This document shows positions 16,772 to 26,323 of a stretch of DNA of 51,281 nucleotides, one piece after another (the first letter of the stretch is position 1; each line of letters opens with the position of its first letter). The notes beneath the pieces are model-generated. The model worked only from the letters and a program-made list of their open reading frames with translations. It had not been told where the DNA came from and did not search any database. Both the position numbers and the translations under genes were made by a program. Source of the stretch: Actinomycetes bacterium (GTDB lineage: Bacteria > Actinomycetota > Acidimicrobiia > Acidimicrobiales > Acidimicrobiaceae); NCBI GenBank assembly GCA_021842145.1, contig JAKCBW010000001.1:36070-87350 (forward strand), written 5' to 3'.

Positions 16772-16813
16772 ATCGATCTAGTTAGATCGATCTAGTTAAA
16801 TCGATCCAGTTAT
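16772..16813. repeat. 14-bp tandem repeat, three units, at a gene end
   Basis: Units ATCGATCTAGTTAG, ATCGATCTAGTTAA and ATCGATCCAGTTAT run head to tail from 16772. The last unit contains the TAA stop (reverse strand) of the permease gene. Each unit holds the palindrome ATCGAT. The array lies between the permease 3' end and the topA start, so it could affect termination, topA expression or neither. Confidence 0.9.
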
Positions 16814-19212
16814 ACGCCGTCCTCTTCCGAGTCGGGCCCCACCAGAAATTCATACTTCGGGTTGAGCATAGCGAGGTGCCCGCCGACCTCTCCAACCATC
16901 CCTTCGACCAAGAGCCTCCGCCCGGGGGTTATCCCGGGAACTGCGCGTCTTCCAGCGAAGACCAGTACGATTCCACCGGTTGAGTCCTCTATCCTCGCCG
17001 CAAAGGCGGGGACCGAATCCCACGACTGCACCCTGACTAGCTTCACACGCCCCGCAACCGTCGCCTTGGTTCTGTAGGTGACGCTCCCTATCGGCACCGC
17101 ACCGGGAACGATTAGGTGGATGTCGGTCTCGCCCGACGGCACATGGGTCGTGGTCTGCGAATCGGCCTCACCAGTGGAGGGTTTTTTGGACTTAAACTTT
17201 ACCAGCGAGGTCTTCTTTTTCCCGAGTTCAAATGGAATGATGGTCGCGTTGACGTGGGGAATCTGAGATACCACCTCGGCTATAGAGTCCGCAGTCCGAT
17301 CGTGTAGCACCCTGCTCCATACCCTCGAATATCCACGTCTCGGTAGCAGAACGGTTACCTCGGTCTCACCATCCGCCGTGTACTCGGTTACGAGCTCCAA
17401 AGAGACGCTTCTTATCCTCCGGTCGGGACACTCGATAACTTCGAGCTCGATTCTCCCGAGTCCCCTCTTGCCCCACTCCTCCTCAAGCTCCCTCGCCTGT
17501 TTCACATCCAAGATGAAGTGGATCGCTTTGAGGTCATCCGGATTGATAGCGCGAGCGTACTGAATTGCCCTCGCGGTCGCTAGGTCAAGGCGATCGACAA
17601 AAACTAGCACCGTGTGGCTCTTGAGTATCGGGGCATCACACGCCGCAGCTACTCCGGATTCGAGCTCGACCTCCTCTTCTGTATAGACCTTGTTGAGTCG
17701 GATAAAGAGGATGACTAGCACCGGCATCATGACCAAGACCACCCAGGCACCCCTGGTGAATTTGGTATAGGCAAATATAAAATCGACGATGAAGGAGAGG
17801 ACCGCCGCAGACCCATTGACAGCAATTCTCCATCTATAACCGGGCTCCTTGACGGTCAAGTGGTGTTTGACCATACCCGCCCCGGCCATGGTAAATCCGG
17901 TGAAAACACCGATTGCGTACATCGCAATCAGGGCGGTGACCTGTGCCTTGGTTACTATCAGCAGCACCTCAGCGAGGATCGCCAAAACGATGATCCCGTT
18001 AGAGAAGACGAGCCTGTGTCCCCTCCTAGTGAACTGCCTCGGCAAAAAGGAGTCGGCGGCGGTAAAGGAGGCCAGGAAGGGAAATCCCGTGAAGGAGGTG
18101 TTTGCGGCCAAGACCAGAATCATCGTCGTGGATATCTGTAAGAAAAGATAGAAGAATCGCCCAATGGGTCCTGCTCCATAGGTATAGGTCGCTATCTGGG
18201 AGATCAAGGTCGGGGTTCCTGATCGCATAGGGACTGCGTGTGTGAACACCGCTAATAGCGAGACACCGAGGAACATCGTCCCAAGGATCAGGCTCATCGC
18301 CAGGAGGGTCTTGCGTGCATTTCTCTCTTGGGGTGACTTGAATATTCCTACACCGTTGGAGATCGCCTCCGTCCCGGTCAGTGCCGTGCCTCCGCTAGCA
18401 AAAGCCTGCAGAACGATGAATAGGGAGGCACCCATCAATAGGCCCGAACCGCCTAGACCTGCGTGATACGCCCCCGCCTGGTTGATGCTGTGCGTTGGAA
18501 GGTGCCCGAATATGACCCTAAATAGTCCAACGAGGATCATGATCCCCATATTTGCGATAAAGAGGAATGTCGGGATCGCAAAGCTTTTACCCGCCTCCCT
18601 AATGCCCCTCAGGTTGCCATAGGCCAGCAGGGCGACGAAGAAGACCGATATTTCGACGTTATATGGCGTCAAAAAGGGCACCGCAGAGGTCAAGGCATCG
18701 GTTCCCGCAGAAACCGAAACCGCCACGGTGAGGGTGTAGTCGATCAGCAGCGCCGCCGCCGCTAGCTGGGCTAGCTTCAGCCCGAAAGTCTCCCGGGTAA
18801 CCACGTAGGCCCCACCGGCCTTTGGGAAGGCCCTGATAACTTGGAGGTATGAGGCAGTAACGAAGGCCAGCACGATGAGGATGAGCACCGTTATCGGGAT
18901 GACGAGCCCATAGGCCGCTATACCGATAATCGGGATCAGAACTACGAGGATCTGCTCCGTCGCATATGCGGAGGAGGACATGACGTCGGAACTCAACACC
19001 GCAAGTGCGGTCGGCTTGCCGAGCCTCTCCCCCGAAAGCGACTCGTTGACGAGCGGCTTGCCGAGCAGCTTATTTTTCAGCCGATAAGAGAGCTTCTCTG
19101 GAATCTCGTAGCTTCCAGACCTCGGCAGGGCTCTTGGTGCTCTTGAGACTCTTCCTCCGGTCGAAAATCTCCCGGGTTCGACGATGGGAGTCCCTTCATT
19201 TACATCCGTCAC
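16810..19212 (-). CDS. KimA-like APC potassium permease with C-terminal OB-fold domain
   Basis: An 800-residue membrane protein. Residues 1-60 are cytoplasmic, with the KLLGKPLVNESLSGERLGKP lead typical of this subfamily. Then comes an APC-fold core of about 12 membrane helices (residues ~65-510) starting ALAVLSSDVMSSSAYATEQI. The region after ~520 resembles the universal-stress-like cytoplasmic domain of KimA (ILKSHTVLVFVDRLDLATARAIQYA). The last ~100 residues look like an OB-fold (GRVKLVRVQSWDSVPAF...GRRLLVEGMVGEVGG). KimA family members import potassium and in Firmicutes are inhibited by c-di-AMP. The divergent TrkA pair supports a potassium role; amino acid transport is the alternative. 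GTG start. Confidence 0.82.
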   Translation of the reverse strand: MTDVNEGTPIVEPGRFSTGGRVSRAPRALPRSGSYEIPEKLSYRLKNKLLGKPLVNESLSGERLGKPTALAVLSSDVMSSSAYATEQILVVLIPIIGIAAYGLVIPITVLILIVLAFVTASYLQVIRAFPKAGGAYVVTRETFGLKLAQLAAAALLIDYTLTVAVSVSAGTDALTSAVPFLTPYNVEISVFFVALLAYGNLRGIREAGKSFAIPTFLFIANMGIMILVGLFRVIFGHLPTHSINQAGAYHAGLGGSGLLMGASLFIVLQAFASGGTALTGTEAISNGVGIFKSPQERNARKTLLAMSLILGTMFLGVSLLAVFTHAVPMRSGTPTLISQIATYTYGAGPIGRFFYLFLQISTTMILVLAANTSFTGFPFLASFTAADSFLPRQFTRRGHRLVFSNGIIVLAILAEVLLIVTKAQVTALIAMYAIGVFTGFTMAGAGMVKHHLTVKEPGYRWRIAVNGSAAVLSFIVDFIFAYTKFTRGAWVVLVMMPVLVILFIRLNKVYTEEEVELESGVAAACDAPILKSHTVLVFVDRLDLATARAIQYARAINPDDLKAIHFILDVKQARELEEEWGKRGLGRIELEVIECPDRRIRSVSLELVTEYTADGETEVTVLLPRRGYSRVWSRVLHDRTADSIAEVVSQIPHVNATIIPFELGKKKTSLVKFKSKKPSTGEADSQTTTHVPSGETDIHLIVPGAVPIGSVTYRTKATVAGRVKLVRVQSWDSVPAFAARIEDSTGGIVLVFAGRRAVPGITPGRRLLVEGMVGEVGGHLAMLNPKYEFLVGPDSEEDGV

Positions 19213-19672
19213 TGCGGTTCCATCCCTATCATCCGAACAAGCGCCAACTTGTGGTCGAAAAACACTCCACGCTAACTAGACCTCGGCTATAAACTCAAAA
19301 GCGCTCAACCAAACCAACATAGACCTAAAAGCACTTCGACGCTGCAAGCTATAACCTCCTTTGGGGAGCCAACACCTCGCGAAGCCTACATATTGCATTC
19401 CTTCTGGACAACTAATAGTTGATCTGTGCTCGGTTGGCCCGCACCAGCTCCGAAAAACTATCCGGTTCCACGCCGCTGTTTAAGGTGGCTCGATGGACTA
19501 ATTGGGCACTAATTGGGCACTGCGGGATATCGAGCTACGCAGCTATTTGGACTTGATAGAAATCCCTCCCTACCATCTGATTACGGCAGCTATCGAGGTA
19601 TTTCCAAACTTTAACTACCTTTATTGGCCCAATAGGCAGTAAAGCAGTGGCGGAGCGTATTGCATAGATGCT
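19213..19672. other. Divergent intergenic region between the permease and trkA
   Basis: A 460-base region with the starts of two oppositely directed potassium-related genes at its ends. It carries an 11-bp tandem repeat (19497-19518) and a short dyad ATTGG-C-CCAAT near 19624. I looked for c-di-AMP (ydaO-type) riboswitch sequence on both strands and did not recognise its conserved parts. No open frame here resembles a protein. Confidence 0.55.
19497..19518. repeat. 11-bp direct tandem repeat in the trkA upstream region
   Basis: ACTAATTGGGC occurs twice in direct succession (19497-19507 and 19508-19518), followed by ACT of a third start. The related dyad ATTGGCCCAAT lies about 110 bases downstream, closer to the trkA start. 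These could be binding sites for one regulator, or chance plus slippage. Confidence 0.75.
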
Positions 19673-20335
19673 GTGCACGTAATAGTTGTTGGATGCGGAA
19701 GAGTCGGGTCAGAGTTAGCCACTCGTCTAGATCAGGCTGGCCACAAGGTGGTAGTAATAGACAAAGAAGCCAGGAGCTTCAAGCGGCTCTCCGACACTTA
19801 TCGGGGTAGAACCGTTGTCGGTTTCGGCTTTGACCGTGATACCCTCGCCGAAGCCGATGTAGAGCATGCTGATGCCCTCGCTGCGGTGACCTCCGGTGAC
19901 AACTCGAATATCTTGACCGCGAGGATCGCCAGGGAGAACTTCGAGATTGAGCACGTGGTTGCGAGGATATACGATCCGAGGAGGGCTTTGATCTATCAAC
20001 GCCTCGGGATACAGACGGTGGCCACCGTAACCTGGACGACAGACCAGGTGATGCGCAGGCTATCGCCGCAGGACTATACGGAGGAGTGGTCGACCCCCAA
20101 CGGCGAGTTGGTCCTCACCGAAGTCTTACTACCAGACAATTGGGCGGGAAAGAGGCTTTCGGGGATCGAATCGCAGGGTGAGATCCGGATAGTCGCTATC
20201 TCGAGGGCAGAAAAATCCACCATTGTGACTCATGATTCGGTGGGACAAGAGGGCGATCTACTTCACATAGCCGTCAAAAGGAACAATCTGGCGAAGTTGG
20301 CTGAGGTCCTAAATGGAGAGGGGACGAGGAAGTGA
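19673..20335 (+). CDS. trkA: TrkA-type potassium uptake regulatory protein (first of pair)
   Basis: A 220-residue cytoplasmic RCK protein. The N-terminal Rossmann domain has the nucleotide-binding start VIVVGCGRVGSELA (residues 3-16) and the acidic VVIDKEARSF at the end of strand two. A C-terminal RCK_C-like domain covers about residues 140-215. Such proteins gate potassium channels or transporters in response to nucleotides. The GTG start has no strong ribosome site. It overlaps the next gene by four bases and is divergent from the KimA-like permease, an arrangement similar to the ceoB/ceoC locus of mycobacteria. Confidence 0.92.
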   Translation: MHVIVVGCGRVGSELATRLDQAGHKVVVIDKEARSFKRLSDTYRGRTVVGFGFDRDTLAEADVEHADALAAVTSGDNSNILTARIARENFEIEHVVARIYDPRRALIYQRLGIQTVATVTWTTDQVMRRLSPQDYTEEWSTPNGELVLTEVLLPDNWAGKRLSGIESQGEIRIVAISRAEKSTIVTHDSVGQEGDLLHIAVKRNNLAKLAEVLNGEGTRK

Positions 20336-20994
20336 AGGTAGTTATAGCCGGAGCTGGAAACGTCGGGTCTTTCATCGCTGAGGACTTGCACAAGGCTGGC
20401 CACGACGTCCTTGCCATAGAGCAGGACGCCAATTTAGTGGAGAAGTTGAAAGAACACATTCCGGTCAGGTGGTTCGTAGCGGACGCTTGCGAAGTTTCCC
20501 AACTAACCAAGGCGGGGGTTGAAGGTGCCGACGTAATGGTCGCCGCCACTGGCGACGACGAGGACAACCTCGTAATCTCACTACTTGCGAAGCAGGAATT
20601 CATGATCCCCAGGGTGGTAGCAAGGGTCAACCACCCCAAGAACCACTGGCTCTTCAACAAGACATGGGGCATAGACGTTGCGGTATCTACTCCACACCTC
20701 CTTAGCTCCCTCGTCGAGGAGGCGGTGTCGGTCGGAACCCTAGTCAGATTGCTCCAGTTCGAGCAATCTGGAGCGAGGCTGGTAGAGGTTACCCTCGCCG
20801 ACAACTCTCCTGCTTGTGACGCCGAGATAGCCCAATTGGGCCTCCCAAGGGGAGCTTCGATAGTCGCTGTTGTTAGATCCAGAAACGTAGTCGTGCCTAG
20901 GGGTGACACTATTTTGCGCTCGGGAGATGAAGTCCTCGCGCTTGTTACCACCGAAGCCGAAGAGGTCTTCAAAGAGATCCTGGTCAATCGGTAG
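20332..20994 (+). CDS. trkA: TrkA-type potassium uptake regulatory protein (second of pair)
   Basis: A 220-residue paralogue of the preceding protein. It has VVIAGAGNVGSFIAEDL at the N-terminus, VLAIEQDANLV with the ribose-binding acidic residue, and an RCK_C domain from about residue 135 ending ILRSGDEVLALVTTEAEEVF. The GTG start overlaps the upstream TGA (GTGA), pointing to translational coupling and probably a mixed complex. The two proteins are similar in length but clearly diverged in sequence. No TrkH or TrkG membrane subunit lies in the window; the KimA-like permease is the only candidate partner. Confidence 0.92.
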   Translation: MKVVIAGAGNVGSFIAEDLHKAGHDVLAIEQDANLVEKLKEHIPVRWFVADACEVSQLTKAGVEGADVMVAATGDDEDNLVISLLAKQEFMIPRVVARVNHPKNHWLFNKTWGIDVAVSTPHLLSSLVEEAVSVGTLVRLLQFEQSGARLVEVTLADNSPACDAEIAQLGLPRGASIVAVVRSRNVVVPRGDTILRSGDEVLALVTTEAEEVFKEILVNR

Positions 20995-24885: not shown

Positions 24886-25668
24886 GTGCCAAGTCCTAAA
24901 AGAGAACGAATTAGAGAGAACCAGAGAAGGCTACAAGAGATCCGCCAGCGCGACCAGAAAAACAGGCGCCGAAAGCGTCTGGGGTTGATTTGGGGACCGG
25001 TAGCCATCGTCGTCATTGCGGTTGTGGCCTACGGGCTTCTCACTTCCAAAAAGACGCCCACCGCGGCCAAGGTCACTACCACGACGGTTGCATCTACTAC
25101 CACTACCGCCAACTTGGCTAACGTGGTTTGCCCCAACCCCAATGGCTCCTCGCCCCGTTATGAGCACTTCTCATCCGCCCCACCAATGTGTATCAACCCG
25201 GCTAAGACCTACATTGCTAACGTGAAAACCGACGTTGGAACATTCGTCATAACCCTCAATTCAGCCCAGGCGCCAAAAACGGTCAACAACTTCGTGTTTT
25301 TGGCTCGATACCACTTCTACAATGGGCTGATCTTCCATCGGGTAATACCCGGTTTCGTGGTGCAAGGCGGGGATCCTTTGGGAACCGGCCTCGGGGGTCC
25401 CGGCTATCAGTTTGCTGACGAACTACCTAAGGCGGGATCCTACAAGATCGGAACCGTGGCGATGGCGAATGCCGGTCCAAACACCAACGGGAGCCAGTTC
25501 TTCATAGTTACCGGACCTGCGGGAGAGGCGCTACCGCCCAAGTACTCGATTTTCGGTCAAGTCACCTCCGGCATGAACGTGGTCAATGCCATAAGCGCAG
25601 ACGGATCAGCATCCGGCACGCCCAAGGTCGTTCACAAGATGCTGAAAGTTACTATCACGACAAAGTAG
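24886..25668 (+). CDS. Membrane-anchored cyclophilin-type peptidyl-prolyl isomerase
   Basis: A 260-residue protein with a very basic N-terminus (residues 1-34), one membrane helix (LGLIWGPVAIVVIAVVAYGL, ~35-54), a Thr-rich linker (~58-75) and an extracytoplasmic cyclophilin domain (~105-260). The domain shows FHRVIPGFVVQGGDP, GPGYQFADE, AMANAGPNTNGSQFFIV and FGQV, including the active-site Arg and Gln of the family. It probably helps folding of exported proteins. GTG start. The next gene is a cytoplasmic paralogue. Confidence 0.92.
   Translation: MPSPKRERIRENQRRLQEIRQRDQKNRRRKRLGLIWGPVAIVVIAVVAYGLLTSKKTPTAAKVTTTTVASTTTTANLANVVCPNPNGSSPRYEHFSSAPPMCINPAKTYIANVKTDVGTFVITLNSAQAPKTVNNFVFLARYHFYNGLIFHRVIPGFVVQGGDPLGTGLGGPGYQFADELPKAGSYKIGTVAMANAGPNTNGSQFFIVTGPAGEALPPKYSIFGQVTSGMNVVNAISADGSASGTPKVVHKMLKVTITTK
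25457..25505. repeat. 49-bp exact repeat shared by the two cyclophilin genes (copy 1)
   Basis: Bases 25457-25505 are identical to 26112-26160 in the next gene. The block encodes the catalytic loop AMANAGPNTNGSQFF. The flanks differ at many positions, so the block is more similar than the rest of the genes. Confidence 0.95.
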
Positions 25669-25753
25669 TTGGGCCCATCCAAGTACTCGTGCCGCCCTTT
25701 TTTGCGACACTGCCTCGGTCGACCCATAAGTAAACAGATTGGAGAAGAGTTCA

Positions 25754-26323
25754 ATGGCAGCTTCTAAAAAGAATGGTTCACCCATTCCCGAGGCGGACGG
25801 CTCAAGCCCAAAGACCCAGTCCTTCGAAGCTCAACCCGAGATTTGCATCGACTTCGAAAAGAGTTATAAGGCGCATTTCAAGACTACGCACGGGGATTTT
25901 TCGGTTCAGCTCGACGCGAAAAAGGCCCCGCTTACGGTCAACAACTTCGTCTTCTTGGCTCGATACCACTACTACGACGATGTCATCTTCCATAGAATCA
26001 TCCCCGGTTTCGTCGTTCAGGGTGGGGATCCCAAAGGAACGGGAATGGGCGGCCCAGGCTATCGATTTCGTGATGAGCTACCAAACAACGGTGAGTATGA
26101 GATCGGATCGTTGGCGATGGCGAATGCCGGTCCAAACACCAACGGGAGCCAGTTCTTCATTATCACTGGGGCAAACGGCGTTGGCTTGCCACCGCTTTAC
26201 TCCCTCTTTGGCAAGGTTTACGAGGGCCTAGAGGTGGTCAAGGCGATAGAAGCCGCAGGAACTCCTTCGGGTAAGCCCAAGGAGCGCTGCGCAATGCTGA
26301 GCGTGACAATTACCGAAGAGTGA
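25754..26323 (+). CDS. Cytoplasmic cyclophilin-type peptidyl-prolyl isomerase
   Basis: A 189-residue cyclophilin without signal or membrane segment. The motifs FHRIIPGFVVQGGDPKGTGMGG, RDELPNNGEYEIGSLAMANA, NGSQFFII and LFGKVYEG cover the whole fold, with the catalytic Arg and Gln kept. I choose the ATG at 25754, which has GGAG at the right distance; a TTG at 25739 would add MEKSS. It follows the membrane-anchored paralogue by 85 bases, and the pair looks like a tandem duplication. A 49-bp block is identical between them. Confidence 0.92.
   Translation: MAASKKNGSPIPEADGSSPKTQSFEAQPEICIDFEKSYKAHFKTTHGDFSVQLDAKKAPLTVNNFVFLARYHYYDDVIFHRIIPGFVVQGGDPKGTGMGGPGYRFRDELPNNGEYEIGSLAMANAGPNTNGSQFFIITGANGVGLPPLYSLFGKVYEGLEVVKAIEAAGTPSGKPKERCAMLSVTITEE
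26112..26160. repeat. 49-bp exact repeat shared by the two cyclophilin genes (copy 2)
   Basis: Identical to 25457-25505. It encodes the same active-site loop within the cytoplasmic cyclophilin. Confidence 0.95.

Follow-up and report, generated by a model that had tools for sequence, protein, structure and literature searches.

A KimA-type permease with a fused OB-fold domain and its linked TrkA pair: a candidate potassium uptake module of Actinomycetota

To which membrane protein do TrkA proteins belong when the genome that encodes them has no recognisable TrkH? This question is raised by a locus in an Acidimicrobiaceae genome (GenBank assembly GCA_021842145.1), in which kimA::OB, encoding a KimA-type permease with a fused C-terminal OB-fold domain, is divergent from two overlapping trkA genes. 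The locus lies within a stretch of 51,281 nucleotides of contig JAKCBW010000001.1 (positions 36,070 to 87,350), the whole of which is referred to here as the window. We consider it fairly probable that the locus encodes a K+ uptake module in which a KimA symporter is controlled by an RCK pair, with the OB domain as a third part. In such a module, the KimA-family K+/H+ symporter would import K+, a hetero-oligomer of TrkA1 and TrkA2 would bind to the cytoplasmic face of KimA and set its activity by nucleotides such as NAD(H) or ATP/ADP, and the OB domain would most likely be an adaptor or sensor between the cytoplasmic domain of KimA and the RCK pair. Physical contact, direct gating of KimA by the RCK proteins, nucleotide sensing and the identity of the ligand are what we infer from the computational observations described below.

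The permease, its OB domain and the TrkA proteins

The 800-residue product of kimA::OB (16810..19212, minus strand, GTG start) was assigned using Pfam, phmmer and an AlphaFold2 model. Its residues 43-642, which comprise the transmembrane core and cytoplasmic domain, align with Bacillus subtilis KimA (PDB 6s3k) with a phmmer E-value of 9e-113, and the best Foldseek matches to the full-length model are the KimA structures 8b70, 8b71 and 6s3k, bearing out the original prediction of an APC core joined to a KimA-type cytoplasmic domain. The model is of modest quality (mean predicted local distance difference test score (pLDDT) 74, predicted template modelling score 0.63), and the placement of the OB domain relative to the transporter was therefore left uninterpreted. 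The APC/LeuT-fold transmembrane core (residues ~41-518; 17659..19092, minus strand) was delimited by alignment with KimA, conservation among 183 homologues and modelled helices, and the cytoplasmic alpha/beta domain (residues ~531-662; 17227..17622, minus strand) by alignment, model and conservation. Since residues 1-36 are poorly conserved, the true start of the protein is uncertain.

Residues D76, Y83, D158, T162, T279, E282 and Y432 of the permease correspond to D36, Y43, D117, T121, T230, E233 and Y377 of the K+ site of KimA, the transport roles of which have been described (PMC6994465), and the equivalents of D36, Y43, D117, T121, E233 and Y377 are kept in the clade of the window protein, as judged from the 183 homologues. 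The window protein thus has in common with B. subtilis KimA, a member of the KUP family, the APC-type core, the cytoplasmic domain and the K+ and proton residues, and is probably a K+/H+ symporter of the same KUP type, K+ transport being deduced from sequence. Pfam itself names AA_permease_2 alone (E-value 8e-23, residues 67-500), as would be expected if the protein were an amino acid transporter of the APC superfamily unrelated to K+, but we regard this as extremely unlikely given that among solved structures KimA is by a wide margin the closest relative and that the K+-site residues, including E233, are retained. The same genome encodes a second, divergent KimA (L093, G000:C153) of ~38% identity, with no TrkA or OB gene nearby, and two tandem KimA cytoplasmic domains are found in 26 of the 198 KimA open reading frames (ORFs) examined (L085, L089-L092, L094, L115-L117, L131-L137).

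What the permease adds to the KimA architecture is a low-confidence linker (residues ~663-701; 17110..17226, minus strand; pLDDT mostly below 50 at 663-700) followed by the C-terminal domain (residues ~702-792; 16837..17109, minus strand). When modelled alone from its own sequence aligned with 28 related ones, this domain gives a five-stranded OB beta-barrel (pLDDT 89), the top structural matches of which are the OB domains of RPA, RecG, PolC and aspartyl-tRNA synthetases (Z-scores of 12.4 to 3dm3 and 11.3 to 1gm5). The resemblance to an OB fold noted originally is therefore upheld by structure prediction. Pfam and NCBIfam yielded no confident OB family name for the segment, which is similar to RecG_wedge below the Pfam cut-off (E-value 0.01) and weakly to tRNA_anti-codon, and a search with the segment alone against PDB sequences gave no meaningful match. 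These resemblances raise the alternative that the domain binds nucleic acid, as its relatives in RPA and RecG do, and couples K+ uptake to RNA or DNA instead of to the RCK pair. The closest folds are indeed nucleic acid-binding, but a common fold does not demonstrate function, the domain is fused to or co-located with a membrane transporter, and, when fused and separate copies are aligned, G, D, R, N and P make up most of the best-conserved residues. We judge a role in nucleic acid binding to be improbable.

The divergent genes trkA1 (CeoB-like; 19673..20335, plus strand) and trkA2 (CeoC-like; 20332..20994, plus strand) overlap by 4 nt (GTGA) and each encode a 220-residue protein comprising one TrkA_N and one TrkA_C domain, i.e. 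one RCK per protein. The nearest solved relative of the trkA1 product is TM1088A, and those of the trkA2 product are Vibrio TrkA and TM1088B. Both proteins keep the GxGxxG motif followed by an acidic residue that is expected of NAD(H)- or ATP-binding RCK domains.

Linkage of the trkA pair to kimA

The original prediction described two overlapping TrkA genes lacking TrkH, and this picture holds beyond the locus itself. No match to TrkH/KtrB (PF02386) was detected in the draft genome of the window (G000, 76% complete) or in G014, which belongs to the same family and is assembled as a single contig. As the latter is 99% complete, an assembly gap is an unlikely reason for the missing TrkH. KdpA is present in both genomes, and in G014 a frame of 350 residues gives an additional but weaker match to TrkA_N. 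We searched 119 genomes of the class for KimA, TrkH and the trkA pair, and fetched and annotated the neighbourhoods. Among 50 loci with a strong trkA pair, 47 adjoin kimA, and no trkH gene was found less than 10 kb from any of them; the weaker trkA genes in this survey mostly adjoin trkH. Conserved linkage of these TrkA proteins to TrkH or TrkG was found nowhere in the sample. A few pairs labelled as having no partner have a KimA gene at least 3 kb away (e.g. L243). TrkH occurs in 3 of the 47 genomes with a kimA-linked pair as compared with 43 of the 72 others (Fisher p 9e-10, uncorrected for phylogeny), and in six of the eight genomes in which KimA is unlinked to a trkA pair. A sample of 159 genomes from the phylum gave a similar picture, with TrkH in 12/64 genomes containing KimA versus 75/95 others (p 3e-14, likewise uncorrected). 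Fisher tests ignore common ancestry, and more weight is placed on rearranged gene orders and on exchange of KimA in place.

The cassette of kimA, trkA1, trkA2 and OB is found across the Actinomycetota, with the OB sequence fused to KimA, encoded downstream of kimA, located between the trkA genes or positioned beyond trkA2. The order KimA<T1>T2>OB< is the commonest (39 loci), in line with the earlier statement that many actinobacteria encode a small OB-fold protein separately, close to the two trkA genes; the fused order OB<KimA<T1>T2>, correctly recognised in the window, was observed at 25 loci, with a few genomes entering this count twice. In less frequent arrangements, the OB gene immediately follows kimA, separates the two trkA genes or lies elsewhere. 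The closest named record found, from an Acidimicrobiaceae metagenome-assembled genome (75% identity), has a layout identical to that of the window. Mycobacterium europaeum, M. rhizamassiliense, M. simiae and named Streptomyces genomes have the divergent arrangement and encode OB separately; in M. europaeum and Streptomyces sp. ICBB 8177, trkA2 and OB are separated by a gene for a DUF3159 membrane protein (L238, L241). In S. antioxidans kimA is ~3 kb from the trkA pair, and in Kitasatospora no kimA was found within the stretch fetched around the pair. Outside the phylum, co-directional kimA-trkA1-trkA2 genes without an OB gene are present in Chloroflexi (among L181, L199, L209 and L187, which include other taxa) and in one unclassified metagenome-assembled genome, and an Armatimonadetes locus has the co-directional order trkA1-trkA2-kimA, also without OB. 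Neither TrkA nor OB genes were found at the KimA loci examined in Firmicutes, Nitrospira, Rokubacteria and cyanobacteria.

In a KimA tree, all of the fused forms and nearly all of those with OB directly downstream fall in one supported clade, so the fusion is not unique to the genome of the window, and some members of this clade lack an adjoining TrkA pair. In the tree of trkA pairs, those beside OB-clade KimA and those beside the other KimA type intermingle in a single clade, implying that KimA proteins of two deep clades (~39% identical) replaced one another next to a trkA pair that remained in place. The trees were built with FastTree, and single origins are outside their scope.

The assignment of the TrkA pair to the KimA permease is thus well supported by linkage, exclusion of TrkH, in-place exchange of KimA and a published transposon sequencing (Tn-seq) phenotype common to ceoB and the adjacent Rv2690c of Mycobacterium tuberculosis (PMC12216072). 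These same data bear on a different explanation, that the genes belong to a common K+ homeostasis regulon without contact between the products, with another channel or transcription as the target of the TrkA proteins. In favour of this, divergent genes could have a common promoter region, G014 has the further TrkA_N match, and Kdp is also present. Against this, G000 and G014 lack TrkH/KtrB, the association survives both in the co-directional operons of other phyla and through the exchange of KimA, and ceoB and Rv2690c have a Tn-seq phenotype in common. We consider a regulon without contact to be rather unlikely.

Several observations weigh against control of KimA by the RCK pair and OB domain. 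In G059 (97% complete), KimA::OB lacks an accompanying trkA pair, and extra copies of this kind are found in Mycobacterium (L164, L168, L170) and in Streptomyces and Kitasatospora (L151, L152). Conversely, G012 (96% complete; L102, G012:C4) has trkA1-trkA2-OB beside a major facilitator superfamily transporter, with neither a KimA core nor TrkH found. No KimA-RCK fusion was present among the ORFs examined, and the stoichiometry of a KimA dimer with an RCK ring is left unexplained. Nor is the trkA pair confined to KimA, since some related pairs have as neighbour a large ORF similar to P-type cation ATPases (L099, L100, L101, L107, L113, L114; the match was confirmed by Pfam in L099, L100 and L101 only), which suggests that RCK proteins also regulate a further class of transporter. 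Together, G059, G012, the KimA::OB paralogues without trkA and the ATPase-linked pairs indicate that the parts are modular. Lone trkA2-like genes were also seen at L245 (G256) and L246 (G187), the former next to an ORF that by eye resembles a xanthine dehydrogenase subunit.

With regard to the surroundings of the genes, no Rfam family matched the region 19150-19720, which covers the stretch separating the divergent kimA and trkA1 genes (19213..19672, no strand assigned), and riboswitch control of the locus was rejected on this basis. The Rfam scan of the rest of the window returned one tRNA only, and a promoter and terminator scan gave scores no better than those of shuffled sequence. Elsewhere in the window, adjacent ORFs (24886-25668 and 25739-26323, plus strand) have translations resembling tandem cyclophilin-type peptidyl-prolyl isomerases.

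The question of the ligand

B. subtilis KimA is inhibited by cyclic di-AMP (c-di-AMP), for which the pocket positions have been defined (PMC10284832). If the same ligand controlled the window permease, TrkA and OB would modulate a c-di-AMP switch, and it is in keeping with this that the genome of the window contains a gene with a diadenylate cyclase (DAC) domain and that the equivalents of Arg337 and His579 are mostly kept. However, other pocket positions are rewritten relative to B. subtilis KimA: the window permease has A481->D540, F568->R626, N580->D638 and Q581->R639, and the OB clade mostly has D, R, D and R at these four positions. Moreover, no DAC domain was detectable in 14 genomes with a linked cassette, including 7/8 of the sampled members of family f4 with the fused form.

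The RCK proteins point in the same direction. The signature of c-di-AMP-binding RCK_C domains, (I/L)(I/L)X2DX1RX5N(I/L)(I/L) (PMC10117811), was found in none of the 103 trkA pairs in the neighbourhoods retrieved, and a relaxed pattern also gave no match; the pair in the window was judged for the signature by eye only. Of six RCK_C domains in S. venezuelae, only those of CpeA and Vnz_28520 bind c-di-AMP (PMC10117811), so that Vnz_27460, the locus number of which is next to that of the KimA-like Vnz_27465, is not a c-di-AMP binder. On account of the cassette genomes without DAC, the changed pocket positions and the lack of the RCK_C signature, c-di-AMP is probably not the principal signal of the module, and we give little credence to its acting here as it does on Bacillus KimA.

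Implications for CeoB and CeoC

A close counterpart of the trkA pair is the 'Trk' system formed by CeoB and CeoC of M. tuberculosis, which likewise comprises two single-RCK proteins and has an adjacent gene, Rv2690c, the product of which we take to be a KimA homologue. The OB gene is separate at CeoB/CeoC-type mycobacterial loci, whereas it is fused in the window. The ceoB and ceoC genes (Rv2691/Rv2692) also overlap by 4 nt (PMC8358298). They are needed for low-affinity K+ uptake and have been described without a membrane subunit (PMC8358298, PMC12136442), no membrane partner being named in the M. tuberculosis CeoBC literature examined. Insertions in ceoB and in Rv2690c give a common rifampicin survival phenotype in Tn-seq (PMC12216072). 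A review of Streptomyces names two proteins resembling KimA and does not list TrkH (PMC10117811). No paper linking KimA to a TrkA pair or to OB was found in the open-access literature searched (subscription papers were outside its scope).

The RCK proteins in the window are of the same superfamily as those of the TrkH-TrkA and KtrB-KtrA systems, but the membrane part is of the KimA type and TrkH is absent. RCK control of a transporter other than TrkH has a precedent in KhtT-KhtU and CpeA-CpeB (PMC10117811), in which an RCK_C protein acts on the membrane component. Unlike the module proposed here, KhtTU and CpeABC are exporters or antiporters controlled by c-di-AMP; the window has a predicted importer and two full RCK proteins without the c-di-AMP signature.

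The partnership of KimA and TrkA in actinobacteria, mostly without TrkH, points to the missing membrane partner of CeoB and CeoC. A broader proposal, to which we assign about an even chance, is that the constitutive 'Trk' of most Actinobacteria, CeoBC included, is a c-di-AMP-independent, nucleotide-gated system composed of a KimA-type symporter, a gating hetero-RCK and OB as a third subunit, which the KimA::OB fusion would cut to three polypeptides. K+ uptake by CeoBC matters to M. tuberculosis in colonizing the host, using cholesterol and tolerating drugs, and the conserved KimA-type neighbour, together with the OB protein, provides a concrete candidate for its membrane subunit. If this is true, RCK control would reach beyond TrkH channels and K+ exporters and take in an importer of the KUP type, for which the natural KimA::OB fusion may offer a simpler construct for structural work.

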